Below, in pieces: positions 510 through 15,403 of a stretch of 64,000 nucleotides of DNA. The stretch comes from Niabella sp. (GTDB lineage: Bacteria; Bacteroidota; Bacteroidia; Chitinophagales; Chitinophagaceae): the NCBI GenBank assembly GCA_027493055.1, contig JAPUDO010000011.1, positions 1 to 64,000 of the forward strand, in the 5' to 3' direction. A program made the position numbers and the translations under genes. Under the pieces are notes generated by a model that worked only from the letters and a program-made list of their open reading frames with translations, did not search any database and was not told the DNA's origin. Every line of letters starts with the position of its first letter. The stretch's first letter is position 1.

Positions 510-1535
510 TTACTTAGGTAAATTAATCTCCTGGTAAGGCGGTTCATCCAAAACATAATTGATCCAGTTGTCAAAAGCGTATTTCTCTTTAATATGCCTG
601 CTTATGGGGCAATAGGGTTTTTGCAAAAATGATTCCAGTTGTTCCCAATTATTTCCTGATAATATAAAGATATTATCCGGGTGGTAAAAATCGTACTGTG
701 TAACGGTTTCATTATCAGTTATTAACTTTTTATCATACCCTAACGCTTCAAAAGTTCTGAAAGATAACCCGGTATGTTTTTGATTTAAGAAGTCAACCAG
801 CACTGTTGCTTCTTCTGTTTCTTCTAGATATTGTTCGTAAGAAATACGCTCCGAAAAAAAGGTGATATATTCATAGTCACTTTGTAAAACGCGCCGGCCT
901 GCAGGTAAAAAAATATGAAACCGGGGCGTATAATGCAATGCGGCTATTTTCTTTGAAAAGGAATTAATGATCCCCATCCTGCTTTTTTCATAGGAGCCAA
1001 CAAAAAAGGCTGTTTTAGCGTCCTGCTCCGCTTTTTTTTCTTTTAGCTCTTTTTTAAAGTAAAAATTAGTAACAGGCAGCACTCCCTTTGTACAAAGGTC
1101 TGTGGTAGTGAAGACAAAAAAGCGGTCAAATAAAGTGATATAATCATTTATGGCTTTAAACCTGTTCAGCCCATCCCATTGATAGCCGATCAGTTTTTTG
1201 GATTTAGACTTTGCCAGCTGAATAACAGACCGGGGATAGGCATCTGCCCTTATAAATAAAGCATAGTCCGCCATTCCCTTAATGCGCATAAGTCTGGCTT
1301 TTGCGCCGTTCTCAAAGAAACGGAACCTTAATTTATTCTTATAATGCCGGTCTCTTAAAAAAATTTTTCTAAAAAAATTATATGCTTTTTGTGAGAAGTT
1401 TTTATACTTAAAATCATGCGCCTGGTAAGAAATATCAATAACTTCAAACCCTTTTTCTCTAAGATGCTTTGCAATGATCTTATAAAAGTCAAAAGTTGTA
1501 GGAAGGCCTATGATGATCCGCTTTGATGAGCTCAT
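510..1535 (-). CDS. Putative glycosyltransferase / LPS-core-type protein
   Basis: A 341-residue soluble protein with an ATG start at 1535. The N-terminus 'KRIIIGLPTTFDFYKIIAKHLREKGFEVIDI' looks like the first beta-alpha unit of a GT-B fold. The C-terminal part 'LSFRTFEALGYDKKLITDNETV' resembles the donor-binding end of CgeB/RfaS-like glycosyltransferases, in which a conserved Glu sits in the RxFEALG motif. There is no signal peptide or membrane segment. It is convergent with the GT4 gene to the left with a 10-bp gap, and lies downstream of the DUF4143 ATPase gene. Probable role is adding a sugar to a surface glycan; the specific substrate is unknown and the family call is by motif only. Confidence 0.55.
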   Translation of the reverse strand: MSSSKRIIIGLPTTFDFYKIIAKHLREKGFEVIDISYQAHDFKYKNFSQKAYNFFRKIFLRDRHYKNKLRFRFFENGAKARLMRIKGMADYALFIRADAYPRSVIQLAKSKSKKLIGYQWDGLNRFKAINDYITLFDRFFVFTTTDLCTKGVLPVTNFYFKKELKEKKAEQDAKTAFFVGSYEKSRMGIINSFSKKIAALHYTPRFHIFLPAGRRVLQSDYEYITFFSERISYEQYLEETEEATVLVDFLNQKHTGLSFRTFEALGYDKKLITDNETVTQYDFYHPDNIFILSGNNWEQLESFLQKPYCPISRHIKEKYAFDNWINYVLDEPPYQEINLPK

Positions 1536-13489: not shown

Positions 13490-13642
13490 ATGGGATTAGA
13501 GAATCTGGAATATGAAGAAGGGCAAACACCGCTTGATCCTGATGAGAAAGATGGATTGCTGATTCCTGCCATTTCAAACCGACGTGAACTGGACGAAGCA
13601 GCGCAGCGTAATATTGAAGAAGCGAGAGGCTATTATTGGTAA
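13490..13642 (+). pseudogene. Truncated 'mobile mystery protein B' (Fic protein) remnant
   Basis: The ATG at 13490, 2 bp after the mobile-mystery-A stop, opens 'MGLENLEYEEGQTPLDPDEKDGLLIPAISNRRELDEAAQRNIEEARGYYW' and stops at 13640. This equals the first 50 or so of about 200 residues of mobile mystery protein B ('G.TPLD.DE..GL......R.ELDE.E..NI..A'). The Fic domain with its HPFxxGNGR AMP-transfer motif is absent, and no continuation is visible in any frame to 13800. The toxin half of the cassette is lost. Confidence 0.75.
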
Positions 13643-13802
13643 GGTTACTAAAACTGTGAGTTGCTGGAGGGAGATTGCCGTGCGTTTGGGTTTTCACGGA
13701 ATGAGGTATTATGAATGGAAGGCGCTTTTTAGAAGCTTAAACCAACGTTGTAGTAATTGTCGTTTAATTTTCTATGAGATTTTCCCATCTGGAAAAAATT
13801 TG
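13643..13802. other. Non-coding spacer after the mobile remnant
   Basis: No recognisable gene. A CATGAATGG-like frame is open for a short stretch but matches no family I know. It ends immediately before the 3' end of the tRNA-Arg gene. Confidence 0.4.
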
Positions 13803-13874
13803 TAGCCCGGACAAGAATCGAACTTGTATCTAGAGTTTAGGAAACTCCTATTCTATCCATTGAACTACCGGGCC
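13803..13874 (-). tRNA. tRNA-Arg (anticodon CCT)
   Basis: On the minus strand the full cloverleaf is present. The acceptor GGCCCGG pairs with CCGGGCT (one G-U pair). The D-arm GTTC/GAAT has a GG-containing loop, the anticodon stem GGAGT/ACTCT carries loop TTCCTAA with anticodon CCT, and the T-arm ACAAG/CTTGT carries loop TTCGATT. The discriminator is A and CCA is not encoded. It decodes AGG. Its 5' end is 1 bp from the stop codon of a GIY-YIG nuclease gene on the same strand, and its first 26 bases are repeated exactly at 14158-14183. No own promoter is visible next to it; the likely promoter lies upstream of the duplicated copy. Confidence 0.93.
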
Positions 13875-13875
13875 A

Positions 13876-14115
13876 TTATAATAAAGACTTTAAGAACTCT
13901 TTACCTATTCCTGATTTCAAATACTTTTCGCGCTTTCGGGCGCTTAGCCTGTTCTCCGCTTCTTCTGTGTAGATCAACTCCCATGGCCTATATGCCTTTG
14001 TTGACTGAGTTTTACCTGCATTATGCTGTTGAACTCTGCTTTCAACATTAGTTGTTAATCCAACATAAATCCTGCCGTCTTTTTTGCTTTTAATAGCATA
14101 AATGTAATATTTCAT
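13876..14115 (-). CDS. GIY-YIG nuclease family protein inserted at tRNA-Arg
   Basis: A 79-residue single-domain GIY-YIG protein. 'YYIYAIKSKKDGRIYVGLT' holds the two Tyr-containing motifs (YIY...YVG), 'NVESRVQQHN' holds the catalytic Arg, and 'ENRLSARKREKYLKSGIGKEFL' holds the metal-binding Glu. It resembles the short UPF0213/YhbQ-like nucleases, which are multicopy in many Bacteroidota. The stop codon is 1 bp from the tRNA-Arg 5' end, and the ATG at 14115 is 6 bp from a truncated copy of that tRNA's 5' half. It is the only ORF within the 309-bp unit bounded by 26-bp direct repeats, so it is a strong candidate for the nuclease that created or spread the unit. Confidence 0.9.
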   Translation of the reverse strand: MKYYIYAIKSKKDGRIYVGLTTNVESRVQQHNAGKTQSTKAYRPWELIYTEEAENRLSARKREKYLKSGIGKEFLKSLL

Positions 14116-14120
14116 ACAAT

Positions 14121-14183
14121 GTAGTTTAGGAAACTACCCTACCTGCCGGCAGGCAGGTATTCTATCCATTGAACTACCGGGCC
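14121..14183 (-). pseudogene. Truncated duplicate of tRNA-Arg(CCT) 5' half, with palindrome insert
   Basis: Minus strand: acceptor 5' strand plus D-arm (14183-14158, identical over 26 bp to the intact tRNA), then a 20-bp near-perfect palindrome (14157-14138), then an anticodon stem-loop GTAGT-TTCCTAA-ACTAC (14137-14121) that keeps the CCT anticodon loop but has a different stem. T-arm and 3' acceptor strand are missing, so no functional tRNA can form from this copy. Confidence 0.85.
14138..14157. repeat. 20-bp CTGCCGGCAGGCAGG-type palindrome
   Basis: CCTACCTGCCGGCAGGCAGG equals its own reverse complement except for one position pair. It is GC-rich against an AT-rich flank and interrupts the duplicated tRNA between D-arm and anticodon stem. 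From memory, such palindromes recur in Bacteroidota genomes, often near small GIY-YIG genes. That association needs a database check. Confidence 0.7.
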
Positions 14184-14204
14184 AAAAAGAACTGAAAAGG
14201 GTGG

Positions 14205-14212
14205 CAAATATA
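14205..14212 (-). promoter_or_regulatory. Likely native tRNA-Arg promoter (-7 element TATATTTG)
   Basis: On the minus strand TATATTTG matches TAnnTTTG and ends 22 bp before the first base of the truncated tRNA copy. No equivalent element sits directly before the intact tRNA, where the GIY-YIG gene ends. Transcription from here would pass through the truncated copy and the nuclease gene before reaching the intact tRNA. Confidence 0.55.
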
Positions 14213-14251
14213 TATAATAAAGCATTATTGAAGGCACCTTTTTTAAGGGAA

Positions 14252-15403
14252 TCAGTACGGATAATGCTTTATGCCGGAATGGATGATCTGCCTGCATATT
14301 GCTGAACCGGTTTTTACCAGGTTCGGGTAGGTTTGTGTTAAGGCCTCACTCAACGGGGTGCCGGGCTCATTAATGCAGATCAGTTTATTGAAATACTTTC
14401 CCAGTTCCCGGTCTTCCTTTTCAGGTATTTTACCTGCTACCCCTATCACTTTTACGCCTTTTCCCATAGCCATTTTTGCCACGCCAAAAGGTGCTTTGCC
14501 GTCCAGTGTCTGGTGGTCTATAGCGCCTTCACCTGTGATTACCCAATCGGCTTTTTCCAGATGTTGCCCAAAGCCCGTAAGCTCCAAAAAATAGTCGATG
14601 CCCTGTACGATTTCTGCATTACAATAAGCTGCCAATGCCGCTGCAATACCACCGGCGGCACCACCCGATACCAGGGACCTCATCCGGATTCCGGTTGTTT
14701 TTTCGGTAACCGCGTCCAGCCGTGCAAGCGCTTTTTCCAACTCCGTAACCTCTTGCGGGGTTGCCCCTTTTTGGGGGCCAAAAACAGCTGCTGCACCGGC
14801 GGTACCCAGTAATTTATTTTTAACATCACATAGAATAGTAATGCCTGTGCCGGCCAACCGACGGTCTAAAGCTTTAATTGATACAGTCTCCAGGTTTTGC
14901 AGTCCGATTGGCAGATTTTCTATAGAAGTTCCATTTTTATCATAAAAAATAATTCCCAGTTCTTTTAATATTCCCGCCCCGCCGTCCACGGTAGCGCTGC
15001 CACCAATACAAAGAATAATTTGCTTCGCTTTTTTGTCCAGGGCTGCTTTTATTAACTGTCCGCATCCTGCCGTAGTGGCCTTAAGCGGAGCATACGCTTC
15101 GGGCTTTAATAACCGCAGGCCGGAGGCATCTGCCATTTCTATGATGGCCGTCTGCTTTTCCGGTATCCATCCCCAGGGGGCTTGTATGGGTCTTCCCAGC
15201 GGGTCCTTTACATCACAATAAAACGGTACCGCATTAAAATACCGGCATAACAATGTTCCTGTTCCATCGCCCCCATCCCCCACCGGGCAATGACTGATAA
15301 TGCCTTTGAACCTGGCTTTCTGAAATCCTTCAGCAAGAGCGGCGGCCGCCTCACTGGCAGGTAAGCTGTTTTTAAAAGCATTGGGTGCCATTACAATTTT
15401 CAT
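14252..15403 (-). CDS. Glycerate kinase (GlxK/GarK family)
   Basis: A 383-residue protein phosphorylating glycerate (usually to 2-phosphoglycerate in this family). The N-terminus 'MKIVMAPNAFKNSLPASEAAAALAEGF' and 'PVGDGGDGTGTLL' are the family hallmarks, followed by 'IILCIGGSATVDGGAGILKELG' and 'DWVITGEGAIDHQTLDGKAPFGVAKMA'. It is the last gene of the leftward arm (LacI regulator, GntP-type permease, glycerate kinase), with 36 bp between it and the permease. Glycerate arises from tartronate semialdehyde in sugar-acid degradation, which fits a locus for uronic-acid-containing polysaccharide, but the supplying enzymes are not here. Confidence 0.93.
   Translation of the reverse strand: MKIVMAPNAFKNSLPASEAAAALAEGFQKARFKGIISHCPVGDGGDGTGTLLCRYFNAVPFYCDVKDPLGRPIQAPWGWIPEKQTAIIEMADASGLRLLKPEAYAPLKATTAGCGQLIKAALDKKAKQIILCIGGSATVDGGAGILKELGIIFYDKNGTSIENLPIGLQNLETVSIKALDRRLAGTGITILCDVKNKLLGTAGAAAVFGPQKGATPQEVTELEKALARLDAVTEKTTGIRMRSLVSGGAAGGIAAALAAYCNAEIVQGIDYFLELTGFGQHLEKADWVITGEGAIDHQTLDGKAPFGVAKMAMGKGVKVIGVAGKIPEKEDRELGKYFNKLICINEPGTPLSEALTQTYPNLVKTGSAICRQIIHSGIKHYPY

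Follow-up and report, generated by a model that had tools for sequence, protein, structure and literature searches.

Small GIY-YIG nuclease genes and hairpin-broken tRNA copies beside tRNA genes of Bacteroidota: candidate minimal mobile elements

How did a tRNA-Arg(CCT) gene come to lie apart from a promoter-like box, with a nuclease gene and a second copy of the tRNA's own 5' end in between? The window, by which we mean the whole analyzed stretch of 64,000 nucleotides, carries at this tRNA a unit of about 300 bases made up of a nuclease gene, a hairpin, and a broken copy of the tRNA end. Its anatomy can be read directly on the minus strand, where the order is the TATATTTG box, the 5'-end copy, a palindrome, an anticodon-arm copy, the nuclease ORF, and the intact tRNA-Arg(CCT):

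13802-13874, minus strand: intact tRNA-Arg(CCT) (ARAGORN; Rfam tRNA, 65.4 bits)
13876-14115, minus strand, as the tRNA: 79-aa GIY-YIG nuclease ORF (PF01541 GIY-YIG, E 2.9e-18)
14121-14137, minus strand: anticodon-arm copy GTAGTTTCCTAAACTAC, a predicted 7-bp hairpin
14138-14157, minus strand: 20-nt near-perfect palindrome/hairpin CCTGCCTGCCGGCAGGTAGG, inside the broken tRNA copy exactly after position 26
14158-14184, minus strand: 27 nt identical to the tRNA 5' end, comprising 26 bases of the tRNA and one base upstream of it
14205-14212, minus strand: promoter-like TATATTTG (alignments with L127, L130, L131, L134, L137, and L140)

An earlier note on this DNA had described an exact 26-nt repeat of the tRNA 5' end. 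The repeat (13849-13875 and 14158-14184) is there with a spacing of 309, but at 27 nt it is one base longer. The note was also right that the distal copy is partial, but not that it is a simple 26-nt stub. A second repeat (13834-13846 and 14123-14135) is part of the anticodon arm, and the distal copy runs from tRNA position 1 to about position 43, with the 20-bp palindrome at 14138-14157 breaking it directly behind position 26 and separating the two repeat pieces. The note does not mention this palindrome, which is the most distinctive feature of the unit. Rfam matches the distal copy only weakly to tRNA (model 8-63, E 0.34), its 19.4 bits falling short of the curated 29. Three bases distinguish the anticodon-arm copy from the intact arm, each of them keeping or improving pairing, and the copy/palindrome segment, folded as single-stranded DNA, forms two hairpins and folds better than shuffles (z -2.76). 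A TATATTTG box, which we take to be a Bacteroidota promoter, stands before the intact tRNA in relatives and before the broken copy in the window; no promoter or terminator was detected between 13700 and 14400 by a sigma-70-type scan.

The GIY-YIG ORF is the only ORF of at least 40 aa on the tRNA strand between the repeats. We rejected a genomic-island scar, as the 309-bp unit has no integrase, and a group I intron, as the tRNA is uninterrupted and Rfam over 13600-14400 gave nothing but tRNA family matches up to E 1. We also rejected an assembly artefact, since genomes assembled as one contig, G003, G007, and G011 among them, show the same arrangement.

The PF01541 match spans residues 2-68 of 79 and, with the catalytic residues present, places the protein in the GIY-YIG nuclease superfamily; this agrees with the note, as does the stop codon one base from the intact tRNA. 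No separate DNA-binding part beyond the catalytic domain was found in the 79-aa protein. Each of the residues Y4, Y15, G17, R25, H29, and E61 is conserved in 90% or more of the 44 family members compared; R25, H29, and E61 are invariant. The nuclease is under purifying selection, with a median pN/pS of 0.145 over 59 pairs of a wider set that includes unlinked members, all below 0.5. The closest solved relatives by sequence are the UPF0213 proteins (1zg2, E 1e-16; 1ywl, 1.6e-14) and SLX1 (7cq2, 5.4e-8), with I-TevI a weak match. SLX1 is, judging from its name, presumably a structure-specific nuclease, and kinship with it would suit hairpin or branched-DNA substrates. A tblastn search of phage records with the window protein matched 10 at E 1e-5, all Rhizobium phages with 37-38% identity, and PHROGs homing-endonuclease families matched it weakly, over residues 1-39 only.

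The genome to which the window belongs (5.75 Mb, 131 contigs) was searched with the window protein and then with the family profile, yielding six members and a seventh (L315), respectively. Six of the seven lie beside a tRNA, or a fragment of one, together with a partial copy broken by a hairpin; two of these six are at contig ends, beside tRNA pieces, and were judged by blast or by eye. Two members stand downstream of tRNA-Phe(GAA) in tandem 386-bp units and one downstream of tRNA-Ala(GGC). The five members besides that of the window are all of the 3' type, each followed by a partial 3' copy with one or two hairpins, for example CCCCGATACATCGGGG and TCCCGATTTTCGGGA.

From genus to order, matches at E 1e-3 or better were obtained in 41 of 59 genomes, own genome included, and the loci of those listed were fetched. 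A profile of 44 linked members matched in 190 of 296 sampled phylum genomes and 101 of 139 genera (E 1e-8), counts of profile matches among which tRNA linkage was examined for a minority. These matches reach 19 per genome, with runs of five evenly spaced copies among the matches listed. Six Arg-lineage proteins, scanned against named GTDB genomes, contributed the best 80 of 381 confirmed stretches. After deduplication, the set held 242 domains, own genome included (121 from the order set, 35 from the phylum set, and 86 from the named set); L004, L007, L039, L044, L049, L064, L082, L172, and L184 had been left out before counting as duplicate places, along with domains under about 50 residues and L048. 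Where counts before deduplication are given below, they include six domains later removed: L239 (= L008), two in L255 (= L009), L213 (= L190), L046 (= L047), and the second unit of L003, of which L046 and the L003 unit are real but sequence-identical places. The loci are mutually related, so the counts are not independent. Linkage and copy counts use domain coordinates rather than stop-to-stop ORFs.

A tRNA lies within 500 bp of 186 of the 242 domains, and the nearest one is always on the same strand. The 56 domains with no tRNA within that distance are distributed over the order set (48/121, weak matches included), the phylum set (6/35), and the named set (2/86); in the last, which is closest to the window protein, 84 of 86 are thus tRNA-linked. 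Short GIY-YIG ORFs with partial tRNA copies, which the earlier note proposed to seek in other Bacteroidota, were found there in number. A partial copy on the far side of the nuclease, taken as an exact shared run of at least 12 nt, was present in 165 of the 183 linked domains (out of 186) whose far side could be compared and was not detected in the other 18, compared with 0 of 549 dinucleotide-shuffled regions; on this ground a chance repeat was rejected. The side of the copy is matched to that of the nuclease: where the nuclease precedes the tRNA, the 5' end is copied, and where it follows, the 3' end. Accordingly placed, the shared runs fall in the 5' half of the tRNA in 81 of 87 cases of the 5' type and in the 3' half in 75 of 78 of the 3' type. 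The note's emphasis on 5' ends as special was not supported, 3' units being as common in the fetched set (92 of 183 linked domains). In 56 of 91 5' units of that set, the nuclease stop codon lies inside the downstream tRNA, and in 38 of those 56 it is a TAG at one of two fixed places, with an overlap of 10 or 23 nt; the tRNA therefore supplies the nuclease stop. The stop of the window nuclease is not of this kind.

Linked domains stand at 26 tRNA identities, with Arg(CCT) the commonest (40), a lead due in part to the use of Arg-lineage proteins in assembling the named set. In a quick tree of 122 domains, tRNA-linked and unlinked members separate, with 8 label changes versus 31.3 in shuffled labels; the tree rests on 75 usable columns and leaves 50 of its 113 inner branches open; ten of its labels were assigned manually (blast or eye), and its 5'/3' labels, taken from stop-to-stop ORFs, are partly wrong. 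The linked lineages tend to follow the tRNA species: all 11 rows of one clade are at tRNA-Phe, and other lineages are at Val, Met, Asn, and Ser tRNAs. Many unlinked domains form a separate clade, while L014 and L023 fall inside the linked part with neither tRNA nor repeat. Tandem arrays were seen directly, with 26 pairs of neighboring units (one from a record fetched twice). One unit, L091 (G015), stands before a tmRNA (725-1102, minus strand), the only one that Rfam gave on 40 loci. Its repeat (1092-1170 and 1479-1557) is a 79-nt duplication of the first 11 tmRNA bases and 68 bases upstream, so that a tRNA-like gene other than a tRNA is a target. Some loci of the named set are labeled Patescibacteria, Omnitrophota, Chlorobiota, or Neomarinimicrobiota, labels that are record titles of mostly MAGs, possibly misbinned. 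At L171 (1501-1800), a 3' tRNA copy with a hairpin comes after a nuclease, but the stretch contains no intact tRNA; this reads as a stranded or rearranged unit.

The interruption seen in the window recurs in these copies. Inserts of at least 15 nt occur in 112 of the 165 deduplicated copies (126 inserts), 123 of them without loss of a tRNA base in an alignment whose cheap long gaps favor clean insertions. Their positions in loop-coding parts are recurrent by direct observation: 55 of 126 lie after standard position 21, 14 after position 26, and 7 after position 55, inside the T-loop between GTTC and GA. The 53 copies without such an insert are mostly of the 3' type; in the set before deduplication, an insert was present in 80 of 89 copies of the 5' type and in 35 of 80 of the 3' type. 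Hairpin arms of at least 8 were found in 97 of 169 copies (94 of 165 after deduplication) versus 5 of 169 single-base shuffles and 7 of 169 intact tRNAs. The perfect form of the window's palindrome, CCTGCCTGCCGGCAGGCAGG, is inserted in 39 of the 165 deduplicated copies at 36 loci, some of them on contigs, possibly misbinned, whose record titles name Patescibacteria, Omnitrophota, or Chlorobiota. Searches for the hairpin junction gave no matches in viral contigs and one weak match in plasmids.

We compared occupied and unoccupied sites in close relatives. The tRNA-Arg(CCT) gene is present in all 17 genus genomes, and in the stretches fetched, the nuclease accompanies it only in that of the window; the other 16 have no GIY gene there, which bears out the note's claim of a nuclease-only unit in a tRNA gene that stays intact. 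A second run of at least 12 nt is absent in 13 of these 16. For L130 (G014), the 3' flank aligns with that of the window over about 115 nt and a promoter-like box precedes the intact tRNA, so this locus looks like an orthologous clean empty site. The note had also held that the same partial copy in relatives without the ORF would speak against insertion. ORF-less partial copies bearing hairpins do exist at this tRNA in G015 and G012, but with other hairpins at other positions, and we therefore read them as separate ORF-less units. L138 and L129 have ORF-less 5' copies at tRNA-Arg(CCT) with a D-loop hairpin, and L129 additionally has four 3' copies, spaced at about 160 bp, whose hairpin is in the T-loop. 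Among 16 genus genomes compared at one orthologous tRNA-Phe locus, the nuclease is intact in 8, broken in 1, and missing in 7; of these seven loci, one has an ORF-less copy and two keep an apparent gene start. Orthology was judged, partly by eye, from an upstream flank 71-89% identical over up to 1.5 kb, and for G010 from about 350 nt at a contig end. These states amount to turnover, whether by gain or by loss. As would be asked of a free-standing homing endonuclease, the gene lies beside its presumed target and relatives have empty alleles.

ORF-less hairpin-bearing tRNA copies were observed at L129 (1300-2260), L138, L097 (800-1106), L099 (534-1084), L020 (1170-1358), and L108 (1-800). In these, the hairpin replaces the anticodon arm or sits in the D- or T-loop, and most are in tandem, 100-182 bp apart; they look like non-autonomous units.

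Several known systems invite comparison. Genomic islands that target tRNA genes leave the tRNA gene intact with a partial tRNA copy as a direct repeat; unlike these, the 309-bp unit lacks an integrase and has its direct repeat at the 5' end. REP/RAYT and Rickettsia palindromic elements are dispersed palindromes, possibly with a dedicated nuclease, but their type of enzyme and linkage to tRNA are other than those of the present units.

SegB of phages T4 and T6 is a free-standing GIY-YIG homing endonuclease in a tRNA cluster (PMC13096335, PMC2988022). Its mapped cuts lie inside tRNA genes, with the enriched motif RAWTSGAAC at 23 of 83 sites, and its activity causes tandem repeats of tRNA plus segB (PMC13096335). 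By our reading, the reverse complement of this motif, GTTCSAWTY, is the tRNA T-loop; in 3' copies, some of the hairpins fall at that very point. Like SegB, the proteins described here are GIY-YIG enzymes beside tRNA genes of many isotypes, with tandem arrays (PMC13096335; PMC2988022). Unlike the phage-borne SegB, the window protein is a bare 79-aa domain, and the present units carry a hairpin-interrupted partial tRNA copy; the word "hairpin" does not occur in the main text of PMC13096335. Phage tblastn and PHROGs, rather than a direct SegB alignment, revealed no homology to SegB beyond the shared domain. A second parallel is offered by the mORFs of Allomyces atp6 and of Glomus atp6, atp9, cox2, and nad3, where an endonuclease ORF lies between the complete gene end and a displaced duplicate end (PMC3630166). 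The window and the 165 linked domains with a copy have this geometry. The mORFs, however, belong to protein genes of fungal mitochondria, act at 3' ends, and are mostly LAGLIDADG, whereas the present units occupy either end of bacterial tRNA genes and bear hairpins.

Given SegB cutting and arrays and the geometry of the fungal mORFs, we favor cutting followed by insertion or duplication that leaves one complete tRNA. The units probably form a family of minimal mobile elements, driven by their nuclease and landing in tRNA genes, with mobility and cutting being what we infer. The GIY-YIG enzyme would cut a tRNA gene at a conserved loop-coding point, the candidates being, on the D side, the points that follow positions 21 and 26 and, in the T-loop, the junction between GTTC and GA. 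Repair would insert or duplicate the nuclease gene together with one end of the tRNA, which would leave one complete tRNA and let the cell survive. The hairpin may mark the join and break the leftover copy, leaving only the complete tRNA functional and a target, and renewed cutting could produce tandem arrays. The nuclease would be transcribed from the tRNA promoter. On this model, the window would be read as the native promoter with tRNA positions 1-26, the hairpin, an anticodon-arm remnant, the nuclease, and the complete tRNA. Against a mobile element, the intact tRNA beside it would still be cuttable, and lineages specific to one tRNA could also reflect vertical descent. The 18 linked domains in which no copy was detected, the 53 copies that lack an insert, the 56 domains away from any tRNA (L014 and L023 above all), the unlinked own-genome member L315, and the negative sigma-70-type scan weigh against it as well.

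One form of the mobile-element reading, similar to mORFs and proposed in the earlier note, is the insertion of a carried segment, in which a donor tRNA end displaces the native end. We regard it as a serious possibility, short of probable. The geometry is that of the Allomyces and Glomus genes (PMC3630166), and the window's anticodon-arm copy, three bases off its own tRNA, resembles the arms of L224 and L262, although it is not identical to them. These three differences keep pairing, however, and selection on the hairpin could therefore explain them equally. Many copies also track the local tRNA: in 80 rows of the 5' type, 1613 of 1765 bases match it before the hairpin and 1059 of 1360 after it. 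In the note's insertion model, the nuclease unit in a tRNA gene that stays intact is supported, whereas the carried 5' segment is a less secure proposal.

Copies that often match the local tRNA on both sides of the hairpin also fit local segmental duplication. A resident GIY-YIG enzyme would cut the neighboring tRNA and faulty repair would duplicate the tRNA end and the nuclease in place, as for SegB in phage T6, with the partial copies as debris and little movement of the unit from one tRNA gene to another. In 36 of 61 3'-type loci, the duplication takes in the flank that follows the tRNA, as it does the 68 bases upstream of the tmRNA in L091, and tandem neighbors are common. In the 5' type, however, most upstream flanks show no duplication (18 of 64 exceed the 95% control, and the highest of these 18 matches are mostly tails of a preceding nuclease gene). 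Nor does local duplication alone account for distant genera sharing a hairpin at an identical tRNA position, or for the genus members without a nuclease at tRNA-Arg(CCT), and we consider it unlikely.

Could the hairpins instead be independent dispersed palindromes that landed in free tRNA copies? The pattern TCCCGA(N2-10)TCGGGA occurs at 28 places in the own genome, at least 3 of them in tRNA copies, while the reversed control pattern gave 0. The 20-mer CCTGCCTGCCGGCAGGCAGG was found in 14 of 198 phylum genomes (reversed control, 0), and of 16 such genomic loci read, one has an adjacent tRNA, 15 have no tRNA in the stretch, and none has a GIY gene in it. At two of the 16 (L276 and L290, at about position 1501), the palindrome interrupts another repeat (gcttcggtcgt.. 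/ ctccctcgcaatgacg), so hairpins may nest in other repeats. Against such landing, the insert positions recur, above all after position 21, and all 14 genomes with the 20-mer have GIY profile matches versus 125 of 198 overall (Fisher p 0.0012, ignoring relatedness). Independence of the palindromes therefore seems to us improbable. That the broken tRNA and hairpin are a regulatory RNA element of the nuclease mRNA, rather than a mark of insertion, would accord with the folding of the window segment and the pairing-preserving base changes of its anticodon-arm copy, but is very improbable, as the 3'-type copy stands downstream of the nuclease and the ORF-less units L097, L099, L129, and L138 bear the same structures.

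A broader proposal, which we make tentatively and think somewhat unlikely as it stands, is a two-part system of a single-domain GIY-YIG nuclease and a short palindromic hairpin that together invade loop-coding points of tRNA genes. The hairpin would be the terminus and a nuclease substrate or product, the ORF-less units would be non-autonomous, and the scattered hairpins would be mobilized in trans, making a GIY-YIG-based bacterial counterpart of REP/RAYT over Bacteroidota and perhaps beyond.

No account of such units was found among the open-access published papers listed in our searches, as judged from titles and the starts of abstracts. Free-standing GIY-YIG nucleases linked to tRNA and mORF-like units at gene ends are known already in the sources cited above. 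We read the present units as resembling phage SegB and fungal mORFs, yet bacterial, tiny, and hairpin-marked; given the hairpin and the ORF-less units, a system new in kind is conceivable. If our preferred reading is true, tRNA genes across a bacterial phylum would be recurrent safe landing sites for self-coding mobile units that may be some of the smallest. One testable system would unite free-standing homing nucleases with gene-end replacement and palindromic repeats, a class of broken tRNA copies beside tRNA genes would be explained, and miniature nucleases aimed at tRNA genes would be on offer.

Not every family member is tRNA-linked, as is evident from the seventh member in the own genome, L315 (C80:44101-44316), which has no tRNA and sits among dispersed CTTCGTCAAGCTCAGG-like repeats. 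Short GIY-YIG genes likewise stand amid dispersed or tandem intergenic repeats that do not derive from tRNA at L068 (1-560), L084 (700-1900), and L070 (700-1900), and these genes are perhaps a second type of nuclease-plus-repeat arrangement.
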